Below, in pieces: positions 16,984 to 22,734 of a stretch of 37,302 bases of DNA. How positions within the stretch are numbered: the stretch's first letter is position 1; each line of letters begins with the position of its first letter. Source of the stretch: Flavobacteriaceae bacterium. Lineage in GTDB: Bacteria; Bacteroidota; Bacteroidia; Flavobacteriales; Flavobacteriaceae. A program made the translations under genes and the position numbers. The DNA lies in assembly GCA_026988075.1 (NCBI GenBank), contig JALSLZ010000176.1, positions 1-37,302 of the forward strand, given 5' to 3'. The notes beneath the pieces are model-generated. The model did no database searches. It was given only the letters and a program-made list of their open reading frames with translations, and was not told the origin of the DNA.

Positions 16984-17013
16984 AAAAGACTGTCATTAAA
17001 TTGACAGTCTTTT
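16984..17013. terminator. Bidirectional intrinsic terminator between convergent retropepsin and rpsA genes
   Basis: AAAAGACTGTCA / TGACAGTCTTTT perfect 12-bp stem with A/T tracts on both sides. Confidence 0.88.
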
Positions 17014-17036: not shown

Positions 17037-19256
17037 TTATTTTCCTTCCATTTTCTTTTTCAAATCAGCTAAAGCAGAATTTGCTTCACCAATAGTAGTT
17101 TTCTCAGCGGTTTCTTGTTTTTTGATTGCTGTTTTAACATTTTTGTTTTCTTGCTCTCTAAAAGTAGATGTATGAGATACAACAAGTCTTCTATAGTCTT
17201 TATTAAATTCTAATACTGTAAAATTAACAGTATCTCCTTTAACTAATTTAGAACCATCTTCTTTCTCCATGTGACGTGATGGTACAAAACCTTCAACATC
17301 ACCAAAAGATACTATTGCACCTTTATCGTTCTTTTCAGTAACAGTACCTTCGTGAATACTGTCAATTGAGAATGTAGATTCATGACCATCCCAAGGGTTA
17401 TCTTGAGTTTGTTTATGACCAATGTTTAGCTTTCTGTCTTCAACATTTAATTCTAAAACAACTACTTCTAATTCATCACCAACTTTTACAAATTCAGATG
17501 GATGCTTAACTTTTTTAGTCCAAGATAGGTCCGAAATATAAATTAAACCGTCAATACCTTCTTCTAATTCAACAAACACACCAAAGTTTGTGTAATTTCT
17601 TACTGTACCTTTATGTTTAGAACCAATTGGATATTTTTTAGTAATATCAGTCCAAGGATCAACATTTAATTGTTTGATACCTAAAGACATTTTTCTATCT
17701 TCTCTGCTAATTGTTAATATTTCAGCTTCTACTTCATCACCAACTTTTACGAAATCTTGTGCAGAACGTAAATGTGTTGACCATGACATTTCAGACACGT
17801 GTATTAAACCTTCAACTCCAGGAGCTACTTCGATAAACGCACCATAATCAGCAATAATAGTAATTTTTCCTTTGATTTTATCTCCAGCTTTTAAGCCTTC
17901 GTCTAAAGCTTCCCAAGGATGTTTACTTAATTGTTTTAAACCTAATTGAATTCTTGTTTTATCTTCATCAAAGTCAAGTATTACTACATTTAATGTTTGA
18001 TCTAACTCAACCACTTCGTTTGGATGATTGATTCTTGACCAAGATAAATCTGTAATATGTACTAATCCATCAACTCCACCAAGATCAACAAATACACCGT
18101 AAGAAGTAACGTTTTTCACAACACCTTCTAATACTTGTCCTTTTTCTAATTGACCAATGATTTCTTTTTTCTGAGCTGCAATATCAGCTTCGATAAGTGC
18201 TTTGTGCGATACTACAACATTTTTAAATTCGTGGTTTATTTTTACCACTTTGAATTCCATGTTTTTATCAACATATTGATCGTAATCTCTAATTGGCTTA
18301 ACGTCAATTTGAGATCCTGGTAAGAATGCTTCGATACCGAAAACATCTACAATCATACCACCTTTAGTTCTACATTTTACTAAACCAGTAACAATTTCTC
18401 CAGAGTCATGTGCGTCATTTACTCTTCCCCAAGCTTTAATTACACGAGCTTTACGATGAGATAACACCAATTGACCTGTTGAATCTTCTAATTTATCAAC
18501 TAAAACATCAACTTTATCACCTACTTTTAATGCTGAATTATAACGGAATTCGTTTAAAGAAATTACACCTTCTGATTTTGAATTAATATCAATAATAGCT
18601 TCACGTTCAGTCATTCTCATAACTGTACCAACTAACATTTGTCTTTCTTCAACAAAACCTTCAATGCCTTCTAATTCTTTTTCAAAAGCAGCAATTTTTT
18701 CTTCGTCAACTGCCTCAATACCTTCTTCATATTTATGCCAATCAAATTCAGCTAAAAATACTTTAGGGTCTACTTTTGGTTCTTCAACAACAACAGCTTC
18801 TTCCTTTGCCTCTACTTCAACCTCAACTTTTTCTTCTTTAGCAGCTTTAACTTCTGCTTTTGGAGCTTCTGCTTTAGTTGCTTTTTCTTCTGCTTTATTC
18901 ACTTCTTCTTTTTTTGAATCTGTATAATTACCCGCTAAATCTAAATCGCTTACTAAAATATAATAAAAAATAGCACGGTATTTGTTTTTATTAGATTTTC
19001 CCATTTTTTCACATACAGCAGTAATTGCCGCATCTAATTTTTCTGAATCTTCTAAACCATGCTTTTTAATTAAGAAATTTTTCTTAACTGTTAATACTTC
19101 AGATGCATCAGAACAAGAAACTACTTCTGCATCTTTTTTAAAAATTGAAGGTCCTAAACCTTTTACTACTTTTGTAAATAAATCTTTTTCAAAATTCACT
19201 CCTAATTTTTCCATCTCTGCGATGTAAAATTCAATTTTTTCTTCTGTTTTAGTCAT
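17037..19256 (-). CDS. rpsA: 30S ribosomal protein S1 with six S1 repeats and an additional N-terminal domain
   Basis: Six OB-fold S1 repeats (e.g. GVVKNVTSYGVFVDLGGVDGLVHITDLSW); usual flavobacterial S1 N-terminal segment FLAEFDWHKYEEGI appears only at about residue 167. Confidence 0.95.
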   Translation of the reverse strand: MTKTEEKIEFYIAEMEKLGVNFEKDLFTKVVKGLGPSIFKKDAEVVSCSDASEVLTVKKNFLIKKHGLEDSEKLDAAITAVCEKMGKSNKNKYRAIFYYILVSDLDLAGNYTDSKKEEVNKAEEKATKAEAPKAEVKAAKEEKVEVEVEAKEEAVVVEEPKVDPKVFLAEFDWHKYEEGIEAVDEEKIAAFEKELEGIEGFVEERQMLVGTVMRMTEREAIIDINSKSEGVISLNEFRYNSALKVGDKVDVLVDKLEDSTGQLVLSHRKARVIKAWGRVNDAHDSGEIVTGLVKCRTKGGMIVDVFGIEAFLPGSQIDVKPIRDYDQYVDKNMEFKVVKINHEFKNVVVSHKALIEADIAAQKKEIIGQLEKGQVLEGVVKNVTSYGVFVDLGGVDGLVHITDLSWSRINHPNEVVELDQTLNVVILDFDEDKTRIQLGLKQLSKHPWEALDEGLKAGDKIKGKITIIADYGAFIEVAPGVEGLIHVSEMSWSTHLRSAQDFVKVGDEVEAEILTISREDRKMSLGIKQLNVDPWTDITKKYPIGSKHKGTVRNYTNFGVFVELEEGIDGLIYISDLSWTKKVKHPSEFVKVGDELEVVVLELNVEDRKLNIGHKQTQDNPWDGHESTFSIDSIHEGTVTEKNDKGAIVSFGDVEGFVPSRHMEKEDGSKLVKGDTVNFTVLEFNKDYRRLVVSHTSTFREQENKNVKTAIKKQETAEKTTIGEANSALADLKKKMEGK
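18942..19256 (-). other. DUF2853-like domain encoded at the N-terminus of S1 (residues ~1-105)
   Basis: EKDLFTKVVKGLGPSIFKKDAEVVSCSDASEVLTVKKNFLIKKHGLEDSEKLDAAITAVCEKMGKSNKNKYRAIFYYILV resembles remembered DUF2853 proteins; not searched. Confidence 0.65.
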
Positions 19257-19344
19257 TTGACTATTTATTTTGTATCTTATTGTTATTTAGATTATTAAGC
19301 AGTAAATAACACTAAGAGATTATTAAAATTTTCTAAATTATCTT

Positions 19345-19372
19345 CCTTTTCTAATCTATTACTGCGAAAAGG
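19345..19372 (-). promoter_or_regulatory. Possible 5'-leader hairpin of the rpsA transcript
   Basis: CCTTTTC-N14-GAAAAGG on the transcript strand, immediately downstream of the predicted promoter. Confidence 0.35.
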
Positions 19373-19376
19373 TTTG

Positions 19377-19407
19377 CAAAATTAGTTAATATTTTGGTCT
19401 TGAACAA
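19377..19407 (-). promoter_or_regulatory. Bacteroidota-type promoter for rpsA (TTG-N20-TAATTTTG)
   Basis: Minus strand TTG TTCAAGACCAAAATATTAAC TAATTTTG matches the TTG/TAnnTTTG consensus with suitable spacing. Confidence 0.6.
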
Positions 19408-19585
19408 GATAATTGACTAAAAATAGAGAAGGAAAAAAGAAATGAAAAAGGAAAATTAATTACATAGTTTGGCTTTGTAATAGAAAACTCGTAAATAATT
19501 CGGGTTAAAACTGTACTTTTTACAAAAAAAAACATTAATTCAACTTAAACACACAAATAACATATCGTATTTGTGCGTTTTTTGA

Positions 19586-20635
19586 TTAATTTATCAATAA
19601 ATTATCTAATGTTTTTTCTATCAATTTACTGGATGGTCGCTGTGCATTTGCATCAATAATATTCCCTTCTTTATCAATTAATATAAAACGAGGAATACTT
19701 CTAATACCATATTCTTTAATAAAGCTTGACCTCCAAGCATTATCTGCATATAATTGTACGCCTTTCATATTTCTGCTTTTAATCATACGCTTCCAAGCTA
19801 ACTTAGCTTGCTCCGCATCATTTTTATAACCTCTACCATTATCTACCGATATACTAACAAACTCGATTTTTTTATTTTTATACTTTTCTGTCAGCTTTTT
19901 TAAAGCAGGAATTTCTCTTTTACAAGGTCCACACCAAGTTGCCCAAATATCTATATAGACAAACTTTCCTTTAAAATTATCTAAAGATGTTTTTCCGCCT
20001 TTATAGTTTTCGTAATTTACAAATTTAGGCGAAACATTTCCTTTTTTGAATTTTAACAAGTCTTGATGCTTCTTAGCGTAATTTATTTTTAAATATTCAA
20101 TAAATTTATTGTTTCTATTAACTTCATTACTTCTTATTGTAGAATCAACATTCTTTATTGCTAATAAATCATTGAATTTTCGTTCTACACTTTTAAGTTT
20201 AGCATTGAATTCTTTTGGATTTAACTTAAAAAAAGAACTGTAATTATTTAAATTTTCTTCTTTATTTACCTTCTTTTTATTAAACAAATACTCTGTTGTT
20301 CCAGAACCGCTACCTGTAAATTGTATTGTTTTATTAAAATTTGTGTAATCGTATTGTAAATTTAATTCACCTCCATTTTTAATGTAAATTTCAACTTCAT
20401 TTTTACCATCTGTAAATCTATACTTGCCTGAATTAATTAAATGTAAGGTGTCCGAAAAACTGCCATCTAACTCAACATCAATTCGTTTATCTACAAGCTT
20501 GTTTGATACATATATAGTTTCTGTATCGTTTTTCGCTATTAAACCTTTTATAGTTATGTAATTACTATCTTGCTTATTACCACACGAAATAATTGTAAAA
20601 ACAATTAATACAGCTACTATTATTTTTTGAAACAT
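19586..20635 (-). CDS. TlpA-like thioredoxin-fold lipoprotein (N-terminal DUF4369-like domain)
   Basis: Lipobox FTIISC; GSFSDTLHL; YIDIWATWCGPCKREIPAL. Confidence 0.9.
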   Translation of the reverse strand: MFQKIIVAVLIVFTIISCGNKQDSNYITIKGLIAKNDTETIYVSNKLVDKRIDVELDGSFSDTLHLINSGKYRFTDGKNEVEIYIKNGGELNLQYDYTNFNKTIQFTGSGSGTTEYLFNKKKVNKEENLNNYSSFFKLNPKEFNAKLKSVERKFNDLLAIKNVDSTIRSNEVNRNNKFIEYLKINYAKKHQDLLKFKKGNVSPKFVNYENYKGGKTSLDNFKGKFVYIDIWATWCGPCKREIPALKKLTEKYKNKKIEFVSISVDNGRGYKNDAEQAKLAWKRMIKSRNMKGVQLYADNAWRSSFIKEYGIRSIPRFILIDKEGNIIDANAQRPSSKLIEKTLDNLLIN

Positions 20636-20636
20636 A

Positions 20637-21668
20637 CTACTTTAATAATTTAGTTAATAGTTCTTTTGTTTGTGGATTTGACGGTCGTGACATTTTATCG
20701 TTTACGACATTACCTTTTGGATCAATTAATATAAAACGTGGTATTGAATTTACTTTATAAGCTTTTATAAATGAATCGTTTTGAATTGCAAACAATTGAA
20801 TTCCACCCATTTTTTTATCAGCTATCATTTTTTTCCATTTACTCTTAGCATTTTCACGATCGATTGAGATACTTACAAAATGTATTTTTTTACCTTTAAA
20901 TGCTTCTTCTAATTTTTGCAAGTGAGGAATCTCACCAAGACAAGGTCTACACCAAGTTGCCCAAATATCTATATAAACATATTTTCCGCTTAAATCTTTC
21001 AACGATGTTTTACCACCTGAAAAATTTTCATAATTGTTAAACTCTGGTGATTTTTTTCCGTTAAATGAACTGGTAGACGAATTATTAGTTCTTGATTGCC
21101 CTTGATTGTATTGCTTATCTAACATTGCTGGTAAACCTGCTAATGCTTTTTCTTCTTCTTTATAAAACGAGTCATCAATATTATTATGTTTTTTGAGCAA
21201 GGCAGTCAATTCGCTAACTATCATAGAAGATTTAGCTTTAAAGTCCGCTTCTTTCATTTGAAACAATTCTTTTACATTGATTTTACTTTGCCATAATGTT
21301 TTTTCTGCCAAATAATTATTCGTTTCACTTCCGTTACCTGAAAATTTTATAGACTCGATAAAGTTATCAATATTTGCATTTAACTTTATATCATCGTTAT
21401 TTTTCAAATATATACGTATTGGTTTTTTAACTGAAAATAAAAAAAGGTCTCCTTTCTCGTTTAAATGAAGTGTGTCTGAAAAAGTACCGTCATCATTTAA
21501 AACAATAGTCTTAGCATAACCAGTTCGCCCTTTAATCGTAATTTTTTTTACATTGGCATTTTTAATAGTTCCAGATATTTTTGCATAATCTTTTGGAGCA
21601 TCTTCTTTGCAAGAAGTTAAAAATGTAATTAATAATATAATACTAAGTAAACCTATTTTTTTCATCAC
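20637..21668 (-). CDS. TlpA-like thioredoxin-fold lipoprotein (N-terminal DUF4369-like domain)
   Basis: Lipobox FLTSC; GTFSDTLHL; YIDIWATWCRPCLGEIPHL. Confidence 0.9.
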   Translation of the reverse strand: MMKKIGLLSIILLITFLTSCKEDAPKDYAKISGTIKNANVKKITIKGRTGYAKTIVLNDDGTFSDTLHLNEKGDLFLFSVKKPIRIYLKNNDDIKLNANIDNFIESIKFSGNGSETNNYLAEKTLWQSKINVKELFQMKEADFKAKSSMIVSELTALLKKHNNIDDSFYKEEEKALAGLPAMLDKQYNQGQSRTNNSSTSSFNGKKSPEFNNYENFSGGKTSLKDLSGKYVYIDIWATWCRPCLGEIPHLQKLEEAFKGKKIHFVSISIDRENAKSKWKKMIADKKMGGIQLFAIQNDSFIKAYKVNSIPRFILIDPKGNVVNDKMSRPSNPQTKELLTKLLK

Positions 21669-21684
21669 TTCAGTTTATTAAATG

Positions 21685-22734
21685 TTATTTTAAAATTTTA
21701 TTGAATAGCGCTGTTGTTTTAACACTTGATGGTCTTGATGCGTTCGCATCTACAATATTTCCGCTTGGATCTATCAAAATAAAACGAGGAATACCATTAA
21801 TTTCGTATTGTGTTACAAAATCAGACTTCCATGCTTTATCTGCAAACAACTGAATTCCACCCATTTGTTTTTCTTTTATCATTTTTTTCCAGCCATCTTT
21901 AGAAAGTGCTAAAGAATTGTCTTTATAACCTCTACCATTATCAACTGAGATACTTACAAATTCAATGTTTTTATCGTGATATGCCTTTTCTAACTTTTGC
22001 AAGTGTGGAATTTCAGCTTTACAAGGTCCACACCATGTAGCCCAAACATCAATATACACATATTTACCACGCAAATCTTTTAACGAAGTAACGCCACCTT
22101 TAAAATTTTCATAATTAATAAACTCTGGAGATGGTTTACCAATCAATTTAGCATAACGATTTTTTTCTTTTTTCATTTCGTAATAGCTTTTAAGCATTTG
22201 CTTTTCATTAGCTGCAAAGCTTTCTTTTTCTGCTTTTACTAAATTAGCAGCAACTCCTTTTTCTTTTGCTAAAACATTTTCAAATTGAGTCGTTATTTCT
22301 TTTGCTTTTGCTTTAAATTCTGTTTCATCAAGCTCAAATAAATTAGATGAATATGCTTTTTCTGAAAAAAGTGATTTTTTAGCTAAATAATTATTATTAA
22401 CCATTCCTTTACCTGTGTATTTTATAGTCTCATCAAACTCTTTTGTGTCTAAAGTCAATTTTAAATCATCTCCATTTTGTAAATAAACTGATGTAAACTC
22501 ATTGCCGTCAGAAAAAGTAAATAATGCACCATCATTTTTAACGTGTATTGTATCTGAAAAAACACCTTCTTTAGATATTTTAATTTCTTTTTTATAACCA
22601 TCGGTAGATATTGAACCATTCTTACCAAAATGATTTGTGATTATTCCAGAAAATGTAGCGTAATTTTGTGGTTTTTTATTACATGAAAATAATGAAACTA
22701 TTAATGCGAAAATAAATACTTTTTTAATCATCAT
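21685..22734 (-). CDS. TlpA-like thioredoxin-fold lipoprotein (N-terminal DUF4369-like domain)
   Basis: Lipobox SLFSC; GVFSDTIHV; YIDVWATWCGPCKAEIPHL. Confidence 0.9.
   Translation of the reverse strand: MMIKKVFIFALIVSLFSCNKKPQNYATFSGIITNHFGKNGSISTDGYKKEIKISKEGVFSDTIHVKNDGALFTFSDGNEFTSVYLQNGDDLKLTLDTKEFDETIKYTGKGMVNNNYLAKKSLFSEKAYSSNLFELDETEFKAKAKEITTQFENVLAKEKGVAANLVKAEKESFAANEKQMLKSYYEMKKEKNRYAKLIGKPSPEFINYENFKGGVTSLKDLRGKYVYIDVWATWCGPCKAEIPHLQKLEKAYHDKNIEFVSISVDNGRGYKDNSLALSKDGWKKMIKEKQMGGIQLFADKAWKSDFVTQYEINGIPRFILIDPSGNIVDANASRPSSVKTTALFNKILK

Follow-up and report, generated by a model that had tools for sequence, protein, structure and literature searches.

The gene rpsA in the 37,302-nt stretch of flavobacterial DNA analysed here (the window) encodes a ribosomal protein bS1 that carries a DUF2853 domain at its N-terminus, and this fusion is confirmed as real and not an artefact (Table 1).

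Architecture and identity of the fusion

The ORF runs through 739 codons without interruption, and its full-length product is predicted to be about 82 kDa. Its N-terminal Pfam match to DUF2853 (PF11015; hmmscan, E 4.5e-33, 114.3 bits against a cut-off of 25) covers profile positions 2-97 of 101. Residues 164-738 are recognized as a '30S ribosomal protein S1' of the Bacteroidota type (NCBIfam NF004953, 880.7 bits against a cut-off of 720) and contain six PF00575 S1 stretches. Since FLAEFDWHKYEEGI starts at residue 167, the span 18759-19256 singled out in a preliminary description is exactly the part of the ORF upstream of it. That description had read the ORF as a DUF2853 domain fused, through a low-complexity K/E/A/V linker of ~60 residues, to a six-repeat S1. 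The first ~105 residues that it quoted match the ORF N-terminus, its family assignment is right (the strong match by sequence answers the objection that no domain would be found there), the linker is 78% K/E/A/V, and the S1 part is a complete bS1. The fused ORF is the genome's bS1 and not an extra S1-domain protein; it is the only full-length bS1 in its own genome (a fragmented draft, 70% complete), and the fused-lineage genomes searched have one bS1 each.

Table 1. Features of the rpsA locus in the window.
Feature	Position	Strand	Basis
rpsA, 739-aa DUF2853-bS1 fusion ORF	17037..19256	-	uninterrupted ORF; Pfam and NCBIfam matches
DUF2853 domain, residues 1-105 (Pfam match 11-105)	18942..19256	-	PF11015, 2pyq, AF2, Foldseek
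K/E/A/V-rich acidic linker, residues 106-163, predicted disordered	18768..18941	-	composition, pLDDT
bS1 body, residues 164-739: N-terminal anchor-like segment and six S1 repeats	17040..18767	-	NF004953, PF00575
TAATTTTG, -7 promoter box (TAnnTTTG)	19377..19384	-	read in sequence
TTG (-33)	19405-19407	-	read in sequence
Structured rpsA 5' leader, about 119 nt	19257..19375	-	conserved in fused and unfused rpsA; pairing test
Leader P1: CCTTTT (19372-19367) with AAAAGG (19350-19345)	19345..19372	-	conservation
Leader P3: TCTTAGTGTTATT (19317-19305) with AATAACAATAAGA (19287-19275)	19275..19317	-	permutation test
Leader pseudoknot pairing	19289..19365	-	permutation test
Intrinsic-terminator-like hairpin just 3' of the S1 stop	16984..17013	-	consensus match only

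The sequence suggests that DUF2853 and bS1 are translated as one protein. The stretch from residue 86 to the S1 body has a single in-frame candidate start, a GTG at residue 119, and no ATG; at least nine homologous fusions have no in-frame ATG, GTG or TTG between DUF2853 and S1. An internal start ahead of the S1 body, which the preliminary description had named as the finding that would overturn its reading, was rejected as a candidate, as no start position is conserved. The linker has a net charge of -7, is 46-88 aa long among the tabulated homologues, and has a pLDDT below 50 over residues 113-158 in the full-length AF2 model (pTM 0.33), which gives no confident docking of DUF2853 on S1.

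Several other long S1 frames were examined for a second domain. Those of G020, G138, G048, G096 and others have only long K-rich or E-rich tails, and the 'insertion' in the 895-aa S1 of L056 is a run of N, a scaffold gap. At L176, L177, L179 and L180, unfused bS1 likewise begins with a low-complexity tail, rich in K or in E, that is some 100 aa long or longer.

Promoter and leader of rpsA

The fusion gene lies behind the promoter and leader of rpsA. The element TAATTTTG is taken by us to be a -7 box of the Bacteroidota type (consensus TAnnTTTG), and TTTGC is conserved at its place in 73 rpsA leaders. The same order is seen in fused and unfused rpsA: the TTTGC promoter edge, CCTTTT...AAAAGG, a downstream stem ending in AnATACAAA, and the start codon. 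No leader of this type occurs ahead of the stand-alone DUF2853 genes compared, which together with its presence in unfused rpsA indicates that the domain was added to rpsA itself, between the leader and the S1 start. Judging from this arrangement, the fused DUF2853 is made under rpsA control.

Pairing in the leader was tested per sequence by permutation because the MAFFT alignment misplaces helices. P1 is too conserved to covary; for P3 the own-pair score is 19.65 against a cross-pair score of 11.33, which was reached in 0 of 2000 permutations. The P1 loop offers two further pairings, GCAGTA (19365-19360) with TACTGC (19304-19299) and AGATT (19357-19353) with AATCT (19293-19289), and this pseudoknot scores 0 of 2000 permutations overall and is weaker within clades (4 and 1 of 2000). 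The flavobacterial rpsA leader is probably pseudoknotted, and it may be a candidate element for autogenous control by bS1. Alignment A3 holds 59 further rpsA leaders besides that of the window. Rfam 15 gave no match on 18900-19600 at E up to 1, and a 2020 survey of new r-protein leaders (PMC7247131) makes no mention of rpsA. Upstream of rpsA, three consecutive related TlpA-like thioredoxin-fold lipoproteins are encoded in tandem (19586-22734, minus strand).

Distribution and history

Frames with both DUF2853 and S1 are present in about 33 genomes, belonging to one branch of marine flavobacteria, and the frame is unbroken in all complete copies. In a genus sample of Flavobacteriaceae they occur in G025 (a one-contig genome), G059, G114, G117, G120 and the window's own genus, and 26 more genomes were reached through related loci, some of them from Lutimonas and Aureibaculum isolates and one a MAG that bears the label Urechidicola. 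Outside Flavobacteriaceae no DUF2853-S1 fusion was found in samples of 398 genomes of the order and 345 of the class. DUF2853 itself is present in 103 of 151 Flavobacteriaceae genera, almost always stand-alone; it was not found in phages, and its plasmid-borne copies are three alphaproteobacterial ones only. The question raised beforehand, whether genomes with the fusion also keep a stand-alone DUF2853, is answered with yes for most of the fused lineage, the window's genome included, and about 12 of 31 fused-lineage genomes, several of them incomplete, have the fused copy only. No description of the fusion was found in the literature, and automatic domain databases may list the architecture.

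The S1 tree places all fused S1s except the divergent one of L034 in one 42-row clade (support 99), which also holds unfused S1s of the Tenacibaculum type and the Lutibacter type. A strict clade of fused S1s was rejected (p-AU 0.011), which points to losses, and one gain followed by two losses, all within one Flavobacteriaceae clade, is the best fit to the S1 tree. The unfused S1 of G048, inside the 42-row clade, retains a long, repetitive tail rich in E and V, which fits such a loss. The DUF2853 tree, with about 100 columns only, does not resolve the deeper branches; in its best topology all fused domains come together, near stand-alone copies of Lutibacter, Tenacibaculum and Campylobacterota. 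The adjoining campylobacterotal copies are those of L060, L064-L066, L074, L083, L088 and L091, and a transfer of DUF2853 between vent bacteria is possible on this placement.

Two further loci differ from the rest. L034 (4001-6271, plus strand) combines a DUF2853 about 80% identical to the window's with a very divergent S1 body (55% overall identity); its leader is of the fused-clade type and the gene is that genome's only S1, and replacement of the S1 body or a metagenome chimera are the candidate readings. L134 (5633-7666, minus strand; G333, same order, other family) carries a second kind of DUF2853 fusion, a PF04185 phosphoesterase with a C-terminal DUF2853.

The DUF2853 domain

The family has no functional annotation. 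Its solved member 2pyq (Jann_4075 of Jannaschia) is matched by the domain at E 9.3e-23 (phmmer), and the AF2 model of residues 1-110 (pLDDT 90.7) superposes on 2pyq_A with TM 0.86/0.83 and rmsd 2.2 (Foldseek), so the structural comparison suggested earlier also bears out the assignment. Nothing except 2pyq was matched when the PDB was searched with this model. In the literature searched, DUF2853 occurs as an entry in a Bartonella table, and papers naming 2pyq deal with crystallography methods only.

Over 56 fused and stand-alone rows, M1, Y11, G35, P36, E53, K58, N60, L62, K64, K65, G86, K92, Y93, R94, Y98 and L101 are invariant, and the family-invariant residues are retained in all fused copies. 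Pairwise dN/dS (NG86) is 0.03-0.21, mostly 0.03-0.11, for the DUF2853 part of the fusions, against 0.07-0.71 for their linkers. By this measure the DUF2853 part is under purifying selection at the protein level, and the linker is drifting. The invariance of K58, N60, K64, K65, K92, Y93 and R94 suggests that these residues contact an acidic partner, for instance RNA. As the overall charge of the domain is near-neutral, RNA binding by a basic surface is a guess.

Gene neighbourhood of stand-alone DUF2853

In most Flavobacteriaceae the stand-alone DUF2853 gene is flanked by menD on one side and, on the other, by a cvfB gene, whose product has S1_2 and CvfB winged-helix domains. DUF2853 and this cvfB are on the same strand at 43 loci, with gaps mostly of 65-130 nt; in the window's genome the stand-alone DUF2853 follows menD, and cvfB is elsewhere. 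Within the menaquinone cluster (L003-L032, L089-L111) the two genes are found between menD and an enoyl-CoA-hydratase-like (menB-like) gene. Other stand-alone copies are neighbours of serine dehydratase (Tenacibaculum type) or QueF (Sulfurovum). A two-box element, (T)GTGAC-N15-(T)GTGTC, precedes 21 of 63 menD-adjacent copies (0.004 expected per 150 nt); it lies 68-95 nt before the start codon with constant spacing, e.g. in L005, L103 and L118, and is possibly an activator or ECF sigma site.

Proposed role of the fused domain

In E. coli, bS1 is attached to uS2 at the solvent side by its N-terminus and first domain, and the remainder of the protein extends round the platform to the mRNA; Bacteroidota ribosomes work without Shine-Dalgarno (SD) pairing, for which bS1 is a postulated substitute (PMC6847099). 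It is proposed, with about an even chance in our estimate, that the fused DUF2853 is a ribosome-tethered accessory domain with a ribosome- or RNA-directed role. In one Flavobacteriaceae clade, rpsA acquired DUF2853 in frame at the start codon and kept its promoter and leader ahead of the new domain, which would therefore be made 1:1 with bS1 as its N-terminal domain. By analogy with E. coli, the N-terminal segment and first S1 domain of bS1 in the fused clade would dock on uS2 and so hold the protein on the 30S subunit. The tethered DUF2853 would then be close to uS2 and to the platform, the place at which mRNA passes from bS1 to the ribosome, and the ~58 flexible residues ahead of the anchor would bring uS2, the platform and the mRNA exit within its range. 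The seven invariant basic and aromatic residues named above would form the contact site for RNA or a ribosomal partner, and this contact would tune SD-independent initiation or the state of the ribosome. The stand-alone paralogue, whose gene is often a neighbour of cvfB, would be this ribosome- or RNA-associated factor in its free form.

A tie of DUF2853 to the ribosome or mRNA binding is consistent with the selection on the domain, the kept leader, the flexible tether and the cvfB neighbours. We infer from the last of these a second, independent tie to S1-domain RNA-binding proteins, against which it can be said that the neighbourhood also has menaquinone genes, and that gaps of roughly 85 nt and upstream promoter-like elements allow separate transcription. 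Lineages with the fused copy only look as if this copy can do the job. Against a role near RNA or the ribosome is the fold, which matches only 2pyq. The loss of the fused domain in two sublineages without obvious cost indicates that DUF2853 is not essential to bS1.

A competing explanation, less probable than the proposed role but to be taken seriously, is that the domain is made as part of bS1 and has a job unrelated to translation, S1 merely supplying expression level or an anchor. The stand-alone genes beside serine dehydratase and QueF, with no ribosome link, agree with this, as do the keeping of both copies in many genomes, the fusion to a phosphoesterase and the two-box element of the men-cluster copies, which suggests separate regulation; a tether to the sole bS1, long kept under selection, would however be a costly way to gain expression only. 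It is unlikely that there is a fusion gene and no fusion product, linker cleavage or internal initiation yielding free DUF2853 and a normal bS1. The linker is indeed long, disordered and fast-evolving, in some genes it contains an in-frame GTG, TTG or ATG, and unfused S1 has a similar short K/E tail, but no position of these start codons is conserved and at least nine homologues have none, no conserved cleavage motif is seen in the linkers, and the frame stays open in every complete copy.

More improbable still is that DUF2853 is a passenger which bS1 can do without, one that sits on an S1 tail already there before it, persists by drift and is now being lost. The losses in two sublineages and the other S1s with long K/E tails and no domain would fit a passenger, yet the selection test disfavours it, the dN/dS of the domain lying below that of the linker in the same proteins, and all fused copies have kept the family-invariant residues. 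That the window's genome is a fragmented draft might raise the suspicion of an assembly or annotation artefact, which is hardly conceivable and is refuted by the same fusion in other genomes, including named isolates and the single contig of G025.

If the proposed role of a ribosome-tethered domain holds, the ribosome with fused bS1 also carries DUF2853 on a flexible tether, and free DUF2853 proteins, as they occur in Flavobacteriaceae, Campylobacterota and Alphaproteobacteria, become candidates for binding ribosomes or RNA. A conserved extra domain on a lineage's only bS1 is a natural experiment on bS1 function in Bacteroidota, and the fusion is a first handle on DUF2853, a family with a solved structure whose function is unknown. 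A more far-reaching idea, held only tentatively, is that DUF2853 is a ribosome-associated factor of a new kind, which in the fused clade would be a permanent tethered part of the 30S platform, adjusting SD-independent initiation or ribosome state, and whose free form elsewhere would bind ribosomes only when expressed, e.g. under stress.

Comparison with known systems

The DUF2853 family was known beforehand, and so were, in kind, fusions at the S1 N-terminus (IspH-S1). The fused domain shares sequence family (PF11015), fold and invariant residues with 2pyq, but 2pyq, with 114 aa, is like most of the copies found a separate protein in the range of 105-145 aa, whereas the window's copy is the N-terminal domain of bS1. 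Like other Bacteroidota-type bS1 (NF004953), the fusion has a complete six-repeat body and the rpsA leader in place; in place of the additional folded domain and long acidic linker of the fusion, other flavobacterial bS1 proteins have only a short or low-complexity N-terminal tail. IspH-bS1 (NF000907, bifunctional HMBPP reductase/30S ribosomal protein S1) likewise has another protein at the bS1 N-terminus, but there the added protein is an enzyme of metabolism and has no relation to DUF2853; NF000907 matches only the S1 part of the window's ORF (465 bits against a cut-off of 624), with no IspH domain. CvfB (PF13509 S1_2 and PF17783 winged helix) is not a ribosomal protein and has no DUF2853 fusion, but it too is an S1-domain protein tied to DUF2853, in its case by gene neighbourhood.
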